Assembly: GCA_003220495.1 (NCBI GenBank) | Contig: QHSP01000055.1 | Coordinates: forward strand, 1-49,102 | Reading direction: 5' to 3' | Origin: Candidatus Rokuibacteriota bacterium | GTDB taxonomy: Bacteria > Methylomirabilota > Methylomirabilia > Rokubacteriales > CSP1-6 | DNA: 49,102 bases | In this document: positions 26,077-34,176 of the stretch, piece after piece | How the letters are laid out: every line of letters starts with the position of its first letter | How positions within the stretch are numbered: position 1 is the stretch's first letter | Notes under the pieces: model-generated | What the model saw: the letters and a program-made list of their open reading frames with translations, nothing else | Told to the model about the DNA's origin: nothing | Databases searched by the model: none | Position numbers and translations under genes: made by a program

Positions 26077-26700
26077 CTAGGGCGTCGGGGCGCGATCCCT
26101 CGCGGGCGAGTTCAGCATGGTGGCGAGCGACGCGAAGAAGAGGCCCAGGGCGATCCCGGCCAGGGTGTCGACCGGCCAGTGAGCCCGGAGAATGATCCGC
26201 GCCAGGGCCACGAGCACGATCAGGAGGACGCTGGCGGCCCGCACGGCGAGCCGCGCCGGTGGGGGGAGCGAGCCCGCGAGATAGATCACGGCGCCGAAGA
26301 ATGCCGCGGCGGCCGTGGCGTGGCCGCTCGGGAAGCCCATCGACGACTCTTCGGGACGGGCGCGGCCGATGACGATCTTCAGCAATCCCTCGGCCGCCGG
26401 CGCGGCGAGCATCAGCCCGACCCAGAGCCACCATCGCGCTCGAGCCCGAGGGAACGCGACCAGCAACAAGAGCGTCGCGGGCAGGAGCACCCGCCAGCTC
26501 CCGAGGTAGTTGACCACCCGAGCAACCTCGACGACGGCCGGCGACCCGTAACCGAGCAGCCACCTCCGCGCCGCGGCATCCCCGGGGAACGGATCGACGA
26601 GCGTCACCGCGAGCGCCAGGGCGATGAAGCAGCCGGCGCTTGCGAGCAGGGTCCAGCAGGCGCTATTTCGACGGGGTGAGCTCGGCGCCACCGCCACCAC
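26077..26700 (-). CDS. PAP2-family membrane phosphatase
   Basis: A 207-residue integral membrane phosphatase of the PAP2 superfamily (undecaprenyl-pyrophosphate or lipid phosphate phosphatases). The three-part catalytic signature is KIVIGRARP, GFPSGHATA, and RIILRAHWPVD (the usual Ser before the Arg is Ala). About five to six helices are seen. The first visible start, GTG 26700, lies 37 bases inside the preceding lipoprotein gene. No better start or ribosome site was found, so the exact N-terminus is uncertain. It is the last gene of the minus-strand metal region and may be only loosely connected with it. Confidence 0.92.
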   Translation of the reverse strand: MVAVAPSSPRRNSACWTLLASAGCFIALALAVTLVDPFPGDAAARRWLLGYGSPAVVEVARVVNYLGSWRVLLPATLLLLVAFPRARARWWLWVGLMLAAPAAEGLLKIVIGRARPEESSMGFPSGHATAAAAFFGAVIYLAGSLPPPARLAVRAASVLLIVLVALARIILRAHWPVDTLAGIALGLFFASLATMLNSPARDRAPTP

Positions 26701-27022
26701 CGTCGCGGACGAATCGCAGCACCCGCTGACCGCGCTCCTCGTGGAGCGTCACCCGACCATTGCCGTCGTTGCCTTCGTAGCGGATGTTCCCGGGGCTCAG
26801 CACGCTGATCGTGCCCCTGATCTCCTTGTACTTCGGCTCGACGAAGAGGAGCCCCTGAAAAGCGCCGTCCTCGGCGATTGTCAGGATCAGCGGGGCATTC
26901 CCCATGGGCCCGGACATCCGGCCCCGCCACGTCCCGGCGAGGCTGGCGGTCTCGGCCGAATATGACTGGGCACTGGCACACCCGGTCAGGAGGGTTGCGA
27001 GCAGCACGATGACGCGGATCAA
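26663..27022 (-). CDS. Small lipoprotein after the metal permease
   Basis: A 119-residue predicted lipoprotein. A short hydrophobic signal ends in the lipobox LLTGC (Cys at residue 15), followed by a Ser/Ala linker. The rest is a small, mostly beta domain with TWRGRMSGPMGNAPLILTI and RGTISVLSPGNIRYEGN. The TTG start overlaps the TGA of the ZnuB-like gene. A GTG at 27007 is another possible start but leaves a very short signal. Linked by overlap to the metal uptake operon, so a periplasmic-side accessory role is inferred. No family is recognised. Confidence 0.8.
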   Translation of the reverse strand: MIRVIVLLATLLTGCASAQSYSAETASLAGTWRGRMSGPMGNAPLILTIAEDGAFQGLLFVEPKYKEIRGTISVLSPGNIRYEGNDGNGRVTLHEERGQRVLRFVRDGGGGGAELTPSK

Positions 27023-27843
27023 GGGCGACGCAGCTTGACGGCAGCGGCCCAGAGCGCGACGAGGCTCACGCCGAAGACACAGACGATCGTAGCTCCGGTC
27101 GGCAGGTCGAGCCAAGCCGAGGCGGTGACCCCGAGCACGCTCACCACGGTGCCGAAGCCCCAGCCGACGAGTAATCGGGTGGCGATCGAGCCGCCGACGA
27201 GCGTAGCGGCGAGCGCCGGCACGATGAGGTACGAGAAGACGAGCAGCACGCCCGCGATGCGGACCGAGCTGGTCACGACGACGCCGAACGAGGCGTAGAA
27301 GACAAAATCCCAGAGCCGCACGCGCCAGCCCTCGGCGTACGCCTTGCGCGGGTCCGTCGAGATCAGAAAGAACGGCCGGCGGCAGAACCAGTGCAGGACG
27401 CCGATCAAACCGTAGAGAATCGCGACCTTCACGACGTCCTCGCCGCCGACCGTCAGGAGCGAGCCGACCAGCATCGCCCGGATGTGCTCGACGCCGTGCG
27501 GGGCGCGGTCGGACAGCAAGACGGCGCCGGCCGCGGACGCGGCGTACACGACGCCGATCACGGCTTCCTGCGACACGCGCCGCTCGCGGCTGCGCGTGAG
27601 CGACAGCACGAGCGCGCCCACGAGCGTCGCGAAGAGACCCGCCCCGTAGGATTCCCAGGTGTGGAGCTCGTGGCCGAACAGGAACGCCGCGGTGGCGCCG
27701 AGCGCGGCGATCTGGGCGAGCGCGATGTCGACGAAGACCACCTCGCGCGCCAGCACGTGAACGCCCAGGTAGGCGTGGATGCCCGTGAGGACCAGACACA
27801 TGAGGAACGGCGCCCACAGGAGCGCCAGGAGGTCGGAGAGCAT
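27019..27843 (-). CDS. ZnuB/MntB-like metal ABC transporter permease
   Basis: A 274-residue inner-membrane permease of the ABC-3 (zinc/manganese) family. About eight hydrophobic segments are present, with family patterns VHVLAREVVFVDIALAQIA near residues 28-46 and VRIAGVLLVFSYLIVPALAA near residues 195-215. It is 17 bases downstream of the second ZnuA-like gene. No ATP-binding protein (ZnuC) gene is present before, between or after the transporter genes in this window, so the ATPase must be supplied from elsewhere. The metal could be Zn, Mn or Fe. Confidence 0.94.
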   Translation of the reverse strand: MLSDLLALLWAPFLMCLVLTGIHAYLGVHVLAREVVFVDIALAQIAALGATAAFLFGHELHTWESYGAGLFATLVGALVLSLTRSRERRVSQEAVIGVVYAASAAGAVLLSDRAPHGVEHIRAMLVGSLLTVGGEDVVKVAILYGLIGVLHWFCRRPFFLISTDPRKAYAEGWRVRLWDFVFYASFGVVVTSSVRIAGVLLVFSYLIVPALAATLVGGSIATRLLVGWGFGTVVSVLGVTASAWLDLPTGATIVCVFGVSLVALWAAAVKLRRP

Positions 27844-27860
27844 ACGGTCGGCTGTCGACC

Positions 27861-28778
27861 CTAGCGAAGCGCCTGAGCGAGCGCGTTCACGTTGTAGTCG
27901 ATGCTCCCGATGTAGGTATCGACGCCCTTGATCCCACCGACCATCGTCGGGATGACGACGACCTTTGCCCCGGCTTCTTCGGCGATACGCTGCGCGAGCT
28001 TCAGATCGTTCCAGGGCTGGACGAGGACGACTCTGACGCGCTCGTCCTTCATCTGCCGGACCAGCTGCGCGAGGTGCTGCGGCGAGGGCGGGATGCCCGG
28101 CCGGTCCTCGAGCATACCCACCTGGATCAGCCCGAACCGAGCGAGGAAGTAGACGTAGTCGGGGTGGTAGACGACGACCTTGGCGCCCTTGACAGGCGCG
28201 AGCGCGTTCGTCCAGCGCACCATCGCTTCTTCGACGCGGGCGAGGAAGGCCTGGCGATTCTTCTCGAAGGTCGCTCGAAGCTCGGGGGCCACGCGGGACA
28301 GGCCGTCGACGAGATTTTGAGTCACGATCGGCGCCAGCCCGGGATCGAGCGAGTAGTGAGGATTGCCCAGGGGATGCACGTCGCCCATCGAGCGATCGAC
28401 CCGTGTCGACGGCACATCGAGCACCTGGATACCGCGCGAAGCGTCGACGCGGCCGACCGCGCCGCGGACGATCTTCGGGTTGTTCGCGCCCTGCACGGCA
28501 GTATCCGACCAGGCGTCGAGCTCGAGGCCGTTCTCGATGAACAGATCCGCGCGCCGGAGCCGAAGCATGAGGCTTGGGCGGATCTCGACATCGTGCGCGT
28601 TCTGGCTGCCACGGGCCAGGGACTCGACGTCGACCTGGTCGCCGCCGATCTCCTCCACGAGCGCCTTGAAGTCCGGGATCGTCGTCACGACGCGGAGCTT
28701 GTGGGCGCCGTCAGCGCCCGCGGCCAGGAGGCCGAGCACCATGGCAGCGCCAACGAGGGCGGCCGCTCGGTGGCGCAT
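27861..28778 (-). CDS. ZnuA-like metal-binding periplasmic protein (second copy)
   Basis: A 305-residue cluster A-I (ZnuA/TroA) binding protein with an N-terminal signal peptide (MRHRAAALVGAAMVLGLLAAG). Candidate metal ligands are His in SQNAHDVEIRPS (near residue 63), His in HPLGNPHYSLDPG (near residue 138) and His in VVYHPDYVYF (near residue 205). A more C-terminal acidic residue would complete the site. No His-rich loop typical of ZnuA is present. It is a close paralogue of the gene just upstream. The ATG shares one base with the previous stop (TGATG). It feeds the ZnuB-like permease. Confidence 0.93.
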   Translation of the reverse strand: MRHRAAALVGAAMVLGLLAAGADGAHKLRVVTTIPDFKALVEEIGGDQVDVESLARGSQNAHDVEIRPSLMLRLRRADLFIENGLELDAWSDTAVQGANNPKIVRGAVGRVDASRGIQVLDVPSTRVDRSMGDVHPLGNPHYSLDPGLAPIVTQNLVDGLSRVAPELRATFEKNRQAFLARVEEAMVRWTNALAPVKGAKVVVYHPDYVYFLARFGLIQVGMLEDRPGIPPSPQHLAQLVRQMKDERVRVVLVQPWNDLKLAQRIAEEAGAKVVVIPTMVGGIKGVDTYIGSIDYNVNALAQALR

Positions 28779-29692
28779 CACTTCATCGCGGTAACGAGGG
28801 CGTTGACGTTGTGATCGATGGCGCCGATGTAGGAGTCGGCGCCCTTCACCCCGCCCACCATCGACGCCAGCACGACAGCTTTGGCGCCGGCCTCGTCGGC
28901 TATGCGATTCGCCAGCTTCAGGTCGTTCCACGGCTCGACGATGATGACCTTGATCCGCTCCTCCTTCATCTGGCGGATGACCCGTGTCAGATGAGCGGGC
29001 GACGCCGGAATCCCCGGTCGATCCTCGAGCGTCGCCGCCTGGCTCAGCCCGAATCGACTCAGCAGGTAAATCCACTGGGGATGATACACGACGACTCGGG
29101 CGCCCTTGAGCGGCTCCATCGCCCGCGTCCAACGCGCCATGGCCTCGTCGAGACGCGCGAGAAACGCCTGGCGGTTCTTCTCGAACTCGACGCGGTGGTC
29201 GGGGGCGAAGCGGCCGAGGGCATCGACGATGTTCTGGGTGATGACGGGCGCCATGCCTGGATCGAGAGAGTAGTGAGGGTTGCCCAGGGGATGCACGTCG
29301 CCCATCGAGCGATCCACCCGTGTCGACGGCACCTCGAGGACCTGGATGCCGCGCGACACGTCGACCCGCCCGGGCGCGCCGCGGACGATGTTCGGATTGT
29401 TCGCGCCCTGCACGGCGACCTCGGCCCACGAGTCGAGCTCGAGTCCGTTCTCGACCAGGATGTCGGCGCGGCGCAGCTTCACCATGAGGCTCGGCCGAAT
29501 CTCCAGCTCGTGGGCGTTCTGTGTGCCGCGCGCCAGCGTTTCGACGTCGACCAGCTTGCCCCCGACCTCCTCGGTGAGGGCCTTGAGGTCGGGGATGGTC
29601 GCCACCACGCGGATCTTGTCGGCCGCCCCAACGGGGGAGACGAACAGCGCGATGACCGCGAGAGCGAGAAGAGGGCGGATTGCGCTCAGCAT
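28778..29692 (-). CDS. ZnuA-like metal-binding periplasmic protein (first copy)
   Basis: A 304-residue ZnuA/TroA-family binding protein; MLSAIRPLLALAVIALFVSPVGA is the signal peptide. Candidate ligands match those of its downstream paralogue (TQNAHELEIRPS, HPLGNPHYSLDPG, VYHPQWIYL). The two proteins align along their whole length, with strong identity. The start at 29692 has an AGGAGG site that includes the TAG of the upstream barrel gene. The 25 residues that a longer frame would add lie inside that barrel gene and are rejected. Two binding proteins serving one permease may differ in affinity or metal. Confidence 0.93.
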   Translation of the reverse strand: MLSAIRPLLALAVIALFVSPVGAADKIRVVATIPDLKALTEEVGGKLVDVETLARGTQNAHELEIRPSLMVKLRRADILVENGLELDSWAEVAVQGANNPNIVRGAPGRVDVSRGIQVLEVPSTRVDRSMGDVHPLGNPHYSLDPGMAPVITQNIVDALGRFAPDHRVEFEKNRQAFLARLDEAMARWTRAMEPLKGARVVVYHPQWIYLLSRFGLSQAATLEDRPGIPASPAHLTRVIRQMKEERIKVIIVEPWNDLKLANRIADEAGAKAVVLASMVGGVKGADSYIGAIDHNVNALVTAMK

Positions 29693-29702
29693 GCGTCGCC
29701 TC

Positions 29703-31070
29703 CTAGAAGGGGTGCGCGGGATGCGCGCCGAGGATGAAGGAGGCCTGGAAGAAGAGCTCGTCCACATTCCGGGCGCTCGAGCCGTTCAGGTTGACGGCGT
29801 CGCGAGTTTGGGGGCTGCGGTCGGTGTGCTTGTATGCCAGCCGGAAGCGGAGAAACTCCGACGGCCAGAACGTGACGTATGGCTCGATCGCCCACTCCCA
29901 GCCCGGATTCGTCGGATACTGCGACCAGTCGTAGCGAAACCCGCCGGCCCAGCGGCGGAAAGGCTGGACCTCGAGGCCGGCATACGCGCCGGAATGATCG
30001 CGCTGGCGCTTGTCGACGCGGTCGATCGCACCGTCGCCGTCCACGTCGACTCCCACGTCCGCCTTGCGCAGCGAATAGAGCCACTCCCCCGTGAGCGTGA
30101 CGAGTGGATGGAGCCAGCTGTCGGGACGATATTTGTAGCGAAGCTCCCAGCCGAGGATCGTCGACCGGTTCCTGTCGTCCGTGTCGCCGCTCGCGACCGA
30201 CATGCCCAGCTGGATCGCGTGCTCGTCGCCGAGCTCGAGGAACGTCCGAAGCCGGCCCGTGACGAGCGGATGCTGCAGGGTGCCACGGCCGAACGCGGTC
30301 TCGTTGTCCCCGTTGAAGATGCCGGCGAGCGCCTCGATGTAGAAGGGCAGGTCCGGGACGAGGGTCAGCTCGACACCCTTCTCCTGCAATCCCTCGGCGC
30401 CAAAGAAGTTGCGCATGACGTTCGGTCGATCGACCCAGGACAGATCGTGCTCGTGGACCTCGTTCGAGTAGCCGAAGCGGTTGCGCATCTGGCCGAGTCT
30501 CGCCTGGGTACCGTAGGGGAGCGTGAGGAGCGTGAGGTAGGCTTCGGCCAGGTGGACAGTGGTCTCGGCGCCGCGCGTTTCCTCTCCGGCTTCGAACCTC
30601 ACGACCGCCGAGGCGTAGGGATCGATCTGGCCGAAGAGTGAGAGCTCTACTTCACGAGGGAAGAAGCGATTTTCCTGCCCGGCAAAGGTTCCGCCGCCGG
30701 CTCTCTCGACATTGCGCTGCGTGACGTTGCCGACGAAGTCGCCGGCGATGCCCATGTCGAAGAGGAGCTGACCGGAGCCTCGCTGCTGATACAGCCCGAA
30801 CGGTTGCCGGGGCCGCGCGAGATCCATGGCCGACGGCGGAGTCGAGGCTGGCGGCGGCGCGGCGACTCCCGGGCTACCCGGGGCACCTGCCGGAGCGGTC
30901 GGAGCCGGCGGCGGTTGGGCCTCCAGGCGCTTGAGCCGCTCCGTGACCGACTCGAGCTGGTTCTGCAGCTGCTCGATCTGCTTCCGTAGCTCCGCCGCGT
31001 CCTGCGCGGCGGCAACGGCGGGCCCGAGCGCCGTGCACATCGATATGACGATCAGAGCCAGTGCGCGCAT
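29703..31070 (-). CDS. Outer-membrane beta-barrel protein with coiled-coil N-terminus
   Basis: A 455-residue secreted protein: signal peptide to about residue 23, a heptad-like coiled coil (ELRKQIEQLQNQLESVTERL), then a Pro/Ala-rich linker. After the linker comes a long amphipathic beta-strand region that ends in Phe, as expected for a porin recognised by the BAM machinery. It resembles phosphate-selective-porin/DcaP-like barrels, not TonB receptors (no plug domain). A Ca-binding-like loop DVDGDGAIDRVD lies at about 342-353. It heads the ZnuA-ZnuA-ZnuB operon (TAG lies in the next gene's ribosome site), so it may admit the metal or its chelate. Start has GAGGACC ahead. Confidence 0.9.
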   Translation of the reverse strand: MRALALIVISMCTALGPAVAAAQDAAELRKQIEQLQNQLESVTERLKRLEAQPPPAPTAPAGAPGSPGVAAPPPASTPPSAMDLARPRQPFGLYQQRGSGQLLFDMGIAGDFVGNVTQRNVERAGGGTFAGQENRFFPREVELSLFGQIDPYASAVVRFEAGEETRGAETTVHLAEAYLTLLTLPYGTQARLGQMRNRFGYSNEVHEHDLSWVDRPNVMRNFFGAEGLQEKGVELTLVPDLPFYIEALAGIFNGDNETAFGRGTLQHPLVTGRLRTFLELGDEHAIQLGMSVASGDTDDRNRSTILGWELRYKYRPDSWLHPLVTLTGEWLYSLRKADVGVDVDGDGAIDRVDKRQRDHSGAYAGLEVQPFRRWAGGFRYDWSQYPTNPGWEWAIEPYVTFWPSEFLRFRLAYKHTDRSPQTRDAVNLNGSSARNVDELFFQASFILGAHPAHPF

Positions 31071-31092
31071 CCCGGTCCTCCAGTGAATTTGG

Positions 31093-31104
31093 TTCGAGCT
31101 CGAA
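31093..31104. promoter_or_regulatory. Palindrome TTCGAGCTCGAA upstream of the metal operon
   Basis: A perfect 12-bp palindrome in the 71-bp gap before the barrel gene, 22 bases from its ATG, with a second overlapping CTCGAAGCTCGAG-type repeat beside it. It could be an operator for a metal regulator. It does not look like the AT-rich Zur or Fur consensus. No regulator gene is adjacent. Confidence 0.35.
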
Positions 31105-31141
31105 GCTCGAGACAGAAACCAGGCTGACGAGTGGAGGAGCC

Positions 31142-31423
31142 CTAGAAGCGGGGCGGCGCGCGCGAATCGGAGAGCCGGACCGGTGCGGCGGCGAGGCGCG
31201 CGGCGGCCAGCGAGATCGCCGCGGAGAGCACGAGCGCGATCCCGAGGACCGGCATCGCATCGAGCTGGCACGCGTGGGTGCCGAACGCCGCCATCAGCGT
31301 GAGGTCGTGGTCGGCGTTCCAGAGCCCCGGGGTCGAGCCGGCGTGGGTGTGGGGCAGGCTCGCGCCGGCGAGAAGAAGCGCGACGACTCCCAGCAGCAGC
31401 GGGAAGGCGCGGCGTTTCGACAT
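31142..31423 (-). CDS. Small His-containing membrane protein of the copper cluster
   Basis: A 93-residue protein with an N-terminal hydrophobic segment (about 6-22, possibly an uncleaved signal) and a second helix (about 52-75). Between them is a periplasmic-type loop with SLPHTHAGS, NADHDLTL and FGTHACQL, that is, several His and one Cys that could bind metal. No named family was recognised. It follows the CopC gene by 37 bases on the same strand. On the minus strand TTGCAA lies upstream, but no clean -10 was found. An in-frame start 36 bases earlier exists and is less likely. Confidence 0.7.
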   Translation of the reverse strand: MSKRRAFPLLLGVVALLLAGASLPHTHAGSTPGLWNADHDLTLMAAFGTHACQLDAMPVLGIALVLSAAISLAAARLAAAPVRLSDSRAPPRF

Positions 31424-31460
31424 GGCGATTACAACAACACGATCGGCCCGGGATTGCAAG

Positions 31461-31835
31461 TTATCGGCGGTCCTTGACCGTGAAGGTCAGCTTCGACTCG
31501 ATCACGTGGCCGTCGACCGAGAGGACGCGAAAGCTCACGGTATAGCGGCCGGGCGCGAGCGGGGGCAGCGAGACCGCGAGGCGCCGGGAGTCCTCGGGGG
31601 ACACCGCGACGTCACGCAGATCGACCTGGGTGCCTGCCTCGTTCGTGACCAACGCCTTCGAGTACGCGGGCTCGAGTCGTTCGTTGAACCAGAGCTCCAC
31701 GCGGGGCGGGGACTCGACGAGCGCCGCCCGCTGGGCGGGGACGGACTTCACGAGGACGGCGTGAGCGAGGGCCGCAGCCGGCCAGAGCGCCAGGACAGCC
31801 AGCCCGGCCGGGACGAGCCGCCGAGCGACCCTCAC
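31461..31835 (-). CDS. copC: CopC-family copper-binding protein
   Basis: A 124-residue periplasmic CopC-domain protein. The signal peptide ends at ALA, leaving mature N-terminal His-Ala-Val, the Cu(II)-binding amino-terminal His of the family. The core reads LVKSVPAQRAALVESPPRVELWFNE in family register. The second ligand region is SVDGHVIESKLTFTV. The GTG start overlaps the stop of the CusF-like gene by four bases. With the CopD fusion and CusF-like protein it makes a compact three-gene copper unit, probably for copper uptake or buffering in the periplasm. Confidence 0.93.
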   Translation of the reverse strand: MRVARRLVPAGLAVLALWPAAALAHAVLVKSVPAQRAALVESPPRVELWFNERLEPAYSKALVTNEAGTQVDLRDVAVSPEDSRRLAVSLPPLAPGRYTVSFRVLSVDGHVIESKLTFTVKDRR

Positions 31836-32200
31836 TTGATCTTCTCGATCGTGGTCACCGCCACGTTCGGGAGAACACCCTGCAGGGTAAATCGTACCGC
31901 GTCCCCCACGGAAACGGCTTCGTGAATCTTCGGCGACGCGACCCGAAAGCCCATGGTCATCGCCGGCATGTAACCGGGGATCTCGCCGTGCGTGAGGACG
32001 ATCACGCCGAGCTCCGGAAAGATCGCGCGCACGACACCTTCGACCCTCCACTGGCGCTCGATCCCGCTCGCGGCGGCGGCCCGCGCCTCGGCCAGCTCGC
32101 GCTCGAGCCGGCCTTCGCGCAGCCCCCAGAACGCATAGCCCCAGCCCACCCCGATGATCAGCGCCAGGTCGATCAGGAGGACGGCCTTCCAGGCCCGCAT
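31832..32200 (-). CDS. Membrane-anchored CusF-like copper-binding protein
   Basis: A 122-residue protein: one N-terminal membrane helix (about 6-26, probably an uncleaved anchor), a short charged helix, then a small OB-like domain. That domain carries the Cu(I) motif IPGYMPAMTMGFRV (near residues 74-87), as in CusF and the CusB C-terminal domain, with an accompanying His in VLTHGEI. It likely hands Cu(I) between periplasmic partners. ATG shares a base with the stop of the CopD fusion (TGATG), and its own stop overlaps copC. No CusA or CusB gene is nearby. Confidence 0.88.
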   Translation of the reverse strand: MRAWKAVLLIDLALIIGVGWGYAFWGLREGRLERELAEARAAAASGIERQWRVEGVVRAIFPELGVIVLTHGEIPGYMPAMTMGFRVASPKIHEAVSVGDAVRFTLQGVLPNVAVTTIEKIK

Positions 32201-34176
32201 CAGTGCACGTGCTCCTCCGGCGCCGCCTCAGCCGCGATCTTCTCGGCGTTGAGCTGCTGGATCTGGGCGACCAGCGCGTCGATGTCGGTCGCTTCGCCGG
32301 TGCCGCGCGTGATCGCGCGGACGTAGCCCTGGCGGTCGACGAGCAGCTCGACGTGGGGCGCGACCGCGAAGAGCCGGTAGGCCGCGACGATCGTCTCGGC
32401 GCCCTCGGTGACGACGGGGAACATGACGCGCGGGTCCGGACCGAGCCGGCGGATCGCGTCCGGGTCGGCGTTGATCGGCACCGCGATGACCTCCACGCCG
32501 AGCATGGCCAAGGTCCCTTCACGCTGGGCGAGCTGGCTCATGCGAGCGCGCGCTCCGGGCAGCGCATAGAGGACGACCAGCACGTTGCGTCCGCGATAGT
32601 CCTTGAGCGCGTGCGGCGGCGTCGGGCCGACCGAGAACGTGAAGTCCGGCGCGACGAGCCAGCGTCGGTCGCGCTCGATCGTGGGCCCCATGCCGCGGGC
32701 GGCGTACCCGGCCGACAGCGCGCGCAGGTAGTTGATCAGCTCCCAGCACTGCTCCTCGCCGAGACGCGAGACGAATCCTGGCATGCCCGACTCGGGGATC
32801 CCGTGACTGATCCACCAGAAGAGATCGCCCGCGGTGTGCTGAGCCGTGTGAGGCGCGCGCAGATCGGCGGGCGGCCGCGGGAGCCCTCGACCGTCGGGGC
32901 CGTCACCGGCGCCGCGCGGCCCGTGACACCCCGCGCAGTTCGTCTGGTAGAGCACAGCGCCGGCCGCGATCGCGCCGGCCTGGTACGGCACCGAAGGCCG
33001 GAGATAGGTCGTCGGGTACGCGTCGATCGTGAGCGGGGGCAGGGCGAGCCCGACGCCGGCCCCGAGCGCGGCGAGCGCGACGGCCGCCAGCGGAAGGCGC
33101 CACGCCCGCATCGCGAGCCCGGTGATCAGCGCGACGAGACCGACGACCGCGATCTGGCTTCCGATCAGCGCCCGCGTCGCCTCGTCGGCGCGGCCCTCGA
33201 GCGCGGCGAACGAGAGGCGGATCGTGAACGGCCACACCGGCGGCTCGTGACGGGCGGGCGGCGTGACGTTCATCGCCGCCACGATGATCAGAATCGCGAG
33301 CGCCAGGATCGCCTCGACCACCACGAAGCTGGAAAGCCGACGCATCGCGGGGCGCCCGACGGTCGGCCCGTCGCCGCCGAGGCGGCCGAGGAGCACCGAG
33401 CGATTCAGCGCGGCGAAGGCGAGCGCCAGCGCCAGAAGCGCGAGCTTGGAGAGCAGAAGTCTTCCGTAGCTCGTGCCGACCAGCCCCGCCACGCTGCCAA
33501 CGTGGATGATCGCGAGCACGGTCCCCGTGGCGGCGAGAAGAACGATCATGACGAGGGCCGCGCGTGAGAATCGACGCGCCGCGAGGACGGCGTATGGCCG
33601 CGCGTCGGCGCCGGCTTCGGTGGCCGCCGTTTTCAGGAGAAGCGCCAGCGGGAGGAGGCCGCCGACCCAGATACCGGCCGCGAGCACGTGCAGGCCGTCG
33701 GACGCGATCGCGCGCGCGGTGTCGGGCTCCACCGCGGCGGCGTGGCCCGCCGCGGCGAGCGGCAGCAGCGCGGCGACGCCGAGCAGCACCGCTTCACCCC
33801 GCGCCGCACGCCAGTCGGCGCGCCGTTCGACCGACACGCGCAAGGACAGAAAGGCCGCGAGGATCGCGAGGAACCCGGCGCGGACGAGCCACACGTGGCC
33901 GGCCTGGGTCTCGAGCAAAACTCGTTCGATCGCGCGGGGCTCGAAGGCCGCGCCCGCGCGTCCCTCGAAGAGCGCCGTCTGCGCGCCGATCACCACCAGG
34001 CCGGACGCGAGCGCCGCGAGCGCCCACCCCCACGCAGAGGCGAGCACGCGCCGCTCCCAGTGCAGCGCCGTCGCGCGGTCGGAGCGCCCGGCGATCACGA
34101 TCATCGCCGCGGCGCCGACGAGGAGGACCGAGCTGGCAAGGTGAAGCCAGCGGGCGGCGAGTCCGAGCGCGTACAC
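32200..34176 (-). CDS. CopD - cytochrome c - thioredoxin-fold fusion protein
   Basis: A 658-residue fusion. CopD-type membrane region: about eight helices over residues 1-380, with family His motifs (ARWLHLASS, GLHVLAAGIWVGG). Then a cytochrome c domain with haem site NCAGCH (about 414-418) and a likely axial Met in ESGMPGF. The last part is a redoxin/thioredoxin-like domain (about 507-640) in which the active-site loop reads LYALPGARARM, with no Cys. The C-terminus ends HVH. The GTG start follows TACACT by six bases (leaderless pattern); a TTG at 34200 would be the alternative. Probable role: inner-membrane copper import or electron-linked copper delivery. The fusion resembles separate CopD and Sco/redoxin-type parts brought together. 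Confidence 0.9.
   Translation of the reverse strand: MYALGLAARWLHLASSVLLVGAAAMIVIAGRSDRATALHWERRVLASAWGWALAALASGLVVIGAQTALFEGRAGAAFEPRAIERVLLETQAGHVWLVRAGFLAILAAFLSLRVSVERRADWRAARGEAVLLGVAALLPLAAAGHAAAVEPDTARAIASDGLHVLAAGIWVGGLLPLALLLKTAATEAGADARPYAVLAARRFSRAALVMIVLLAATGTVLAIIHVGSVAGLVGTSYGRLLLSKLALLALALAFAALNRSVLLGRLGGDGPTVGRPAMRRLSSFVVVEAILALAILIIVAAMNVTPPARHEPPVWPFTIRLSFAALEGRADEATRALIGSQIAVVGLVALITGLAMRAWRLPLAAVALAALGAGVGLALPPLTIDAYPTTYLRPSVPYQAGAIAAGAVLYQTNCAGCHGPRGAGDGPDGRGLPRPPADLRAPHTAQHTAGDLFWWISHGIPESGMPGFVSRLGEEQCWELINYLRALSAGYAARGMGPTIERDRRWLVAPDFTFSVGPTPPHALKDYRGRNVLVVLYALPGARARMSQLAQREGTLAMLGVEVIAVPINADPDAIRRLGPDPRVMFPVVTEGAETIVAAYRLFAVAPHVELLVDRQGYVRAITRGTGEATDIDALVAQIQQLNAEKIAAEAAPEEHVH

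Follow-up and report, generated by a model that had tools for sequence, protein, structure and literature searches.

The cluster A-I (type II) ATP-binding cassette (ABC) importers ZnuABC, PsaBCA/MntBC-A and AztABCD have binding proteins of family PF01297 and permeases of family PF00950. Genes of these two families are also found in a run of ten minus-strand genes (positions 26077-34176) that begins with copper genes, on contig QHSP01000055.1 of a Candidatus Rokuibacteriota soil bacterium. The whole contig of 49,102 nucleotides (nt), C122 of a 5.98 Mb genome that is 98.4% complete, was analysed and is referred to as the window. The predicted permease fold is PsaBC-like, but unlike the known importers the locus has no ATPase gene, and the genome has none of that family. 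Further, the permease has a relaxed coupling loop, has gained H29 and D39 and has changed the metal triad (His to Gln and Asp to Glu), the operon adds a porin and a leader, and the binding proteins keep three His while the canonical acidic fourth ligand is absent. Membership of AztABCD was rejected, as the NCBIfam scores were 85 bits for AztB (cut-off 280) and 106-107 bits for AztC (cut-off 350).

Three other kinds of system were compared with the locus. CruR of Bordetella pertussis (DUF2946) and CutF of Rhodobacter capsulatus are, like the window leader, small exported-type proteins encoded by the first gene before a metal gene, and leaders of this type share with ours a C-terminal RAPP/proline motif preceded, at about 45 residues, by a metal motif. 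The CutF stem that hides the next ribosome-binding site has a predicted counterpart at the window, positionally conserved in Rokubacteria, with weak per-locus statistics. In contrast to CruR and CutF the window leader uses His with no CxxC, and it precedes a porin/ABC-type importer, a context that we did not find for CruR (PMC9426467) or CutF (PMC9973294) in the portions of the reports available to us. The copper operons of the copCD/ycnJ kind with CusF and SCO-type proteins have CopC, CopD and CusF in common with the window, whereas in the window-type operon CopD forms part of a fusion with cytochrome c and a redoxin lacking cysteines, PAP2 and a beta-propeller gene are present, and the locus holds no CopA or CopB. 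The binding-protein-dependent secondary transporters of the tripartite ATP-independent periplasmic (TRAP) type offer a possible working likeness, a binding protein plus an ATP-free permease, but the protein families are unrelated and we do not claim membership.

On balance we lean towards reading the locus as a copper operon into which a self-contained import module has been inserted, made up of a RAPP leader, a porin, a binding protein, an ATPase-less permease and a lipoprotein, and working as proposed below.

A permease clade without a linked ATPase

The ABC-3 (ZnuB-like) permease is encoded at 27019..27843, on the minus strand like every feature of the run described here. Its assignment is backed by Pfam (PF00950, 8e-33), by the tree, by the diagnostic residues H29 and D39, and by the predicted fold, which is that of the PsaBC permease (template modelling (TM) score 0.81). 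No ABC ATPase gene lies beside it, and the sole ABC ATPase from a motif scan of the window is found far off, at 19.3 kb. An earlier note, made on the window alone, had the genes of the locus right; it missed the lack of an ATPase beside the permease and the RAPP end of the small protein before the barrel.

A permease profile was searched in 387 genomes, and 80 regions were fetched and scored for ZnuB, ZnuA, the barrel and ZnuC-like ATPases. It should be noted that the genomes are mostly metagenome-assembled genomes (MAGs), that some loci are limited by contig ends, that phylum counts are partial and that related sequences are not independent. The high-scoring permeases mostly followed a ZnuA by 10-150 nt and the barrel by about 1 kb, with no adjacent ATPase, and the lower-scoring ones mostly had an ATPase within about 150 nt. 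We then have a tree of 103 non-redundant permeases, which includes rule-breakers and ATPase-less sequences below 206 bits. Here a single clade (support 100/98) takes in 56 ATPase-less permeases and not one that is ATPase-linked. Permeases outside the clade are nearly all ATPase-linked, the exceptions being three ATPase-less sequences with the classical motif (L188, L194 and L196); these are also the ones that fall elsewhere among the ATPase-less permeases below 206 bits, four others being inside. The ATPase label requires 3 changes on the tree, against 33 with shuffled labels. The clade spans Methylomirabilota, Planctomycetota (L117), Myxococcota (L115 and L121) and many unnamed families. We found no description of it in the open-access literature, subscription journals being outside the search.

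The window genome has two ABC-3 permeases, both in the ATPase-less clade, and the clade genomes lacking the ATPase have one or two. No ZnuC/AztA-like ATPase was found in the window genome. The best ATPase match there reached 142.8 bits, fits the heme/siderophore models better (FecE/heme type) and lies beside a FecCD-type permease; the linked ATPases of barrel importers reach 184 and 197 bits. A ZnuC/AztA-like ATPase is likewise absent from eight further clade genomes, one of them a single contig, and in one clade genome (G409) it is present 60 kb away.

Compared with its ATPase-linked relatives the clade is more conserved nearly everywhere, except in loop 161-173 (window numbering), where the difference is +0.32 bits as against -0.58 elsewhere; the result is stable over three redundancy cut-offs. 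We take this loop to be the ATPase-docking coupling loop of type II importers. H29 is present in 54 of 56 clade members and in 1 of 47 ATPase-linked permeases, and D39 in 56/56 and 0/47, respectively. At the positions of the metal triad Gln44 and Glu93 are invariant in the clade, and each is also seen in about half of the ATPase-linked set; Gln44 was rejected as a clade marker because 22/47 ATPase-linked permeases have it.

Several variants of the permease were seen. A second ATPase-less ABC-3 permease (L062 8108-9436; contig C42:35641-36435) has a C-terminal transmembrane/helical extension of about 150 amino acids, its own adjacent ZnuA and no barrel. Permeases of this kind with a long C-terminal extension are also found in Planctomycetota and Myxococcota (L115 11333-12784, L121 11097-12572, L117 9835-11265 and L114 12162-13727); a HEAT-type model (NblB) gives a weak match to the extension in L115 and L114, and in L114 an ATPase is still present. 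In L146 and L149 two ATPase-less permeases follow one ZnuA in tandem, which suggests a heterodimer.

The leader, the porin and the binding proteins

The leader peptide (31142..31423, 93 amino acids) has a hydrophobic N-terminus, a metal-type motif, PHTHAG...WNADHDL, and the C-terminus ...SDSRAPPRF before its stop. An open reading frame (ORF) directly before the barrel with a hydrophobic N-terminus and RAPP or RGPP 2-8 residues from the stop is a regular feature with or without copper genes, found in 30 of 33 Rokubacterial loci and in 24 of the 32 clade loci elsewhere, and five further non-Rokubacterial leaders have other xPP endings. The background is 1.0% of the ORFs of 40-250 amino acids in the same DNA. 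RAPP and RGPP are known as strong bacterial arrest motifs, and small exported proteins encoded ahead of metal genes commonly end in them (PMC12992588). No part of the leader is better conserved than the C-terminal R-x-P-P, while overall identity to the window copy goes down to 12-24%. The Rokubacterial leaders carry PHxHA...GLWNxxHDL-type motifs, with HD some 47 residues ahead of RAPP in the copy of the window, and 18 leaders from other phyla have CxxC 42-46 residues before the Pro motif. In Bordetella CruR the distance from CxxC to RAPP is 45 residues and the stall is relieved by copper (PMC9426467), and in Rhodobacter CutF a stem hiding the next ribosome site is opened by copper-dependent stalling (PMC9973294).

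From the leader stop (31142) to the barrel ATG (31070) there are exactly 71 nt. Two nt past the stop lies an anti-Shine-Dalgarno (anti-SD) sequence, CTCCTCC (31133..31139); in the predicted fold it pairs with GGAGG (31077..31081), the Shine-Dalgarno sequence of the barrel gene. Rokubacteria in general have a CU-rich stretch following the leader stop, with predicted pairing to the barrel GGAGG, and CTCC occurs within 20 nt past the leader stop in 22/30 loci, as against 0-24% for the stops of neighbouring genes. Hence the small protein looks like a CruR/CutF-type metal-sensing leader of the importer module, and the gap, which the earlier note took for the border between two halves, is likely the control point of the second half.

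A number of observations weigh against this view. CxxC is absent from the window leader and from all Rokubacterial leaders, the window leader has no Pfam DUF2946 match, and only 4/39 leaders match DUF2946 (E 0.01), the one of L117 above the Pfam cut-off. The anti-SD pairing of single loci is 6.1 nt, compared with 5.2 nt in shuffles, with p<=0.05 in 2/30 loci, and as a general feature it was rejected, as it is not seen outside Rokubacteria. As individual loci are only modestly above shuffles, the switch is put forward as a supported hypothesis and not as an established structure. The His motifs, together with the missing DUF2946 match of the window copy, would also suit a periplasmic metal-binding protein with an incidental RAPP end. 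We regard this as very improbable, since R-x-P-P is the best kept part of so divergent a protein and such ends are rare among ORFs in general.

RAPP leaders were also seen before the barrels of classical ATPase-bearing importers (L173 1596-1871, L175 4426-4755, L177 560-943 and L187 1062-1400), including one Methylomirabilis-class genome; so the leader may be older than the ATPase loss.

The barrel gene (29703..31070) encodes an outer-membrane porin with an N-terminal coiled coil, a Pro-rich linker and a predicted 16-strand barrel (AlphaFold2 predicted local distance difference test (pLDDT) 82). The best Foldseek matches of the model are the porins VhChiP, Omp32, OprP and DcaP and not TonB receptors. 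A TonB-dependent metal receptor, with a 22-strand barrel and a plug, was rejected on the 16 predicted strands and the porin matches.

Two ZnuA-type substrate-binding proteins follow, at 28778..29692 (PF01297, 9e-54) and 27861..28778 (PF01297, 5e-55). The second is 67% identical to the first, and the two stem from a tandem duplication of recent date; the nearest relative (L042) has the pair too, most relatives having one ZnuA. H61, H140 and H204 are invariant, and the proteins lack the fourth, acidic ligand seen in their closest relatives of solved structure, which are of the AdcAII/Lmb type; the metal-ligand roles of these residues are presumed from established knowledge. Contig C100 (L063 9707-10798) encodes an orphan ZnuA-type protein that has about 50% identity to the window pair and no adjacent permease.

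The import module and the copper operon

All ten ORFs of the run are present, seven of them with Pfam families; in the Pfam scan the small protein and the lipoprotein had no match and the barrel no relevant one. The junctions are tight: CopD and CusF overlap by 1 nt, CusF and CopC by 4 nt, the two ZnuA genes by 1 nt, ZnuB and the lipoprotein by 1 nt and the lipoprotein and PAP2 by 38 nt, with 17 nt between the second ZnuA and ZnuB.

Gene order was compared over 40 regions fetched after a search for the barrel gene in 148 genomes; the barrel relatives that bear names are chiefly Candidatus Rokubacteria/Rokuibacteriota MAGs. Nine Rokubacterial genera have copper genes ahead of the barrel, in 17 loci with the window included, in the order CopD fusion, CusF, [beta-propeller], CopC, small protein, barrel, ZnuA, ZnuB, (lipoprotein), PAP2. 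Beyond PAP2 the same HAD hydrolase and phosphohexomutase-like genes are often found, and some genera lack members, have additional ones or have them in a different order (L056, L058, L071, L072 and L077). Eight loci of seven genera (genomes G025, G059, G009, G037, G019, G023 and G018) have barrel, ZnuA and ZnuB with no copper genes within 7-9 kb upstream, and the CopD-cytochrome-redoxin fusion lies on another contig in 7/7 genomes with the halves apart. Copper operons lacking the module run CopD, CusF, propeller, CopC, PAP2, some short of one member (L203, L204, L205, L208 and L211), and in L213, L214 and L215 the copper operon with PAP2 has as its neighbour a ZnuA-type gene of another, classical kind. 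Outside Rokubacteria the module is found by itself, a Pfam scan of its neighbours giving no recurrent copper or zinc families.

The order with and without the module shows the small protein, barrel, ZnuA, ZnuB and lipoprotein to be a module between CopC and PAP2, and PAP2 to be a copper-operon gene, as it is present when the module is absent. The copper half is thus a separate operon, and the halves are recurrent neighbours and not one indivisible system. Chance adjacency is ruled out by the same neighbourhood in nine genera, and indivisible unity by the seven genera with the halves apart and by the copper operons without the module. As cluster A-I importers of two kinds occur beside the same copper operon, we argue for a functional link between the halves.

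The earlier note had joined the halves tentatively. The gene-order comparison finds them as neighbours, which agrees with it so far without establishing unity, and their separation in seven genera and the lone module of other phyla speak against the rest. Its dividing line has to be moved, as the small protein it had placed in the copper half as a His-rich protein heads the importer module as leader. Nor is a barrel beside a cluster A-I importer unusual, as it had held, since barrel, ZnuA and ZnuB together are widespread.

Mechanism, cargo and the copper genes

We propose that metal would pass the outer membrane via the porin, be captured by the three-histidine binding protein and be handed over to the permease. 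The permease would run without an ATPase of its own, most likely as a binding-protein-dependent transporter driven by an ion or metal gradient, and the gained His and Asp would be residues of its pathway. The leader would set the supply: metal bound to the His motif during export would alter ribosome stalling at RAPP, and a ribosome stalled there would open the anti-SD stem and free the ribosome-binding site of the porin. The direction and the detail of this regulation we infer from CutF and CruR.

A gradient-driven permease would explain why the ATPase was lost, the docking loop relaxed and a charged pair gained, and a borrowed ATPase would account for the conservation that the loop retains; we weight the two alike, each at somewhat under even chances. 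The loop residues are still common in the clade (A168 in 42/56, G172 in 43/56), which goes against an ATP-free permease, as some clade members may dock an ATPase. The permease may then belong to an ordinary ABC importer energised by the ATPase of another importer, for instance the FecE/heme-type one on contig 120. The Staphylococcus FhuC serves several permeases. The PsaBC-type fold and the FecE-like ATPase of the window genome fit such sharing, as does the classical ZnuA'-ATPase-ZnuB' next door in some Rokubacteria. Against it, the coupling loop is the very part that relaxed, the ATPase is missing from the locus in all 56 clade members across several phyla, and 5/9 of the ATPase-lacking clade genomes have no AztA-model match at E 1e-38 and so no close FecE type. 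We consider a shared ATPase a serious candidate, though we would not bet on it.

The cargo may be copper, to judge from the leader type in other phyla, the copper neighbours in Rokubacteria and the changed triad, or it may be zinc, to judge from the binding-protein family, the three-His site and the His-only leader. A zinc uptake module could happen to sit within a copper operon and merely be co-expressed with it: the closest solved relatives of the binding protein are AdcAII/Lmb-type zinc proteins, the best family models are AztC and AztB, the site has three His, and elsewhere the module is independent of copper genes. The recurring pairing with the copper operon disagrees with this, as does the lack of a Zur-like palindrome, searched by eye only, in the gap between leader and porin. 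So does the change of His to Gln and Asp to Glu in the permease, as the Asp-His-Asp metal triad is essential in MntBC (PMC8487065). On this evidence a zinc module seems somewhat less likely than not. The view of the earlier note, one copper uptake and delivery system with a cuproenzyme, for example a heme-copper oxidase, served by both halves, draws on the adjacency in nine genera and on the pairing of the same copper operon with a classical ZnuA'-type importer elsewhere. Further, copper genes are mostly what lies downstream of CruR/CutF-type leaders (PMC9426467, PMC9973294). With four genes of the COX1 (heme-copper oxidase) family the genome does hold a copper client, but nothing links it to the locus. 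The separation of the halves in seven genera and the lack of recurrent copper families near the module outside Rokubacteria tell against a single system; those relatives of the binding protein that are named and have solved structures are proteins for Zn, Mn or Fe, and His-only leaders have been tied to Ni/Co genes and not to Cu (PMC9973294). We find it somewhat less likely than not that the halves form one copper system.

Returning to the gradient-driven permease, we tentatively suggest that the clade may comprise ATP-independent, binding-protein-dependent metal importers of several phyla, built from an ABC permease minus its ATPase plus a transmembrane His/Asp pair, each sharing one operon with a dedicated porin and a metal sensor of the ribosome-arrest type. 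Should the clade work without ATP, it would be a natural case of an ABC permease that has become a secondary transporter. About 60 sequences would then serve for tracing the residues behind the change, and the need of an ABC permease for its engine would become testable. Arrest-peptide metal sensors would control a whole periplasmic import route of porin, binding protein and permease.

The other genes of the run are as follows. The CopD-cytochrome c-redoxin-like fusion (32200..34176, 658 amino acids) matches Pfam CopD (1e-19), Cytochrom_C (1e-14) and AhpC-TSA (1e-7). In an alignment of 11 relatives its CxxCH heme motif is invariant, cysteines are absent from the redoxin domain and the C-terminal tail EHVH is almost invariant. 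This redoxin/SCO-like domain (window 32200-32700) is well conserved here and in relatives despite the cysteine loss, and is perhaps a structural or copper-binding remnant. Next are a CusF-like periplasmic copper-binding protein of 122 amino acids (31832..32200; PF11604, CusF_Ec, 2e-15) and a CopC-like copper-binding protein (31461..31835; PF04234, 2e-23). Close relatives have a beta-propeller gene of about 320 amino acids between the two (L042 6540-7515); it is missing in the window species (31832-31835), and its loss explains why the GTG start of CopC overlaps the CusF stop. At the other end are the small lipoprotein (26663..27019), which accompanies the import module and is not seen in copper operons without it, and the PAP2-family membrane phosphatase (26077..26700; PF01569, 1e-14) of the copper operon. 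One genus has a reductase-like membrane protein with, by eye, a Rieske-like end between CusF and the leader (L071 6905-7912).

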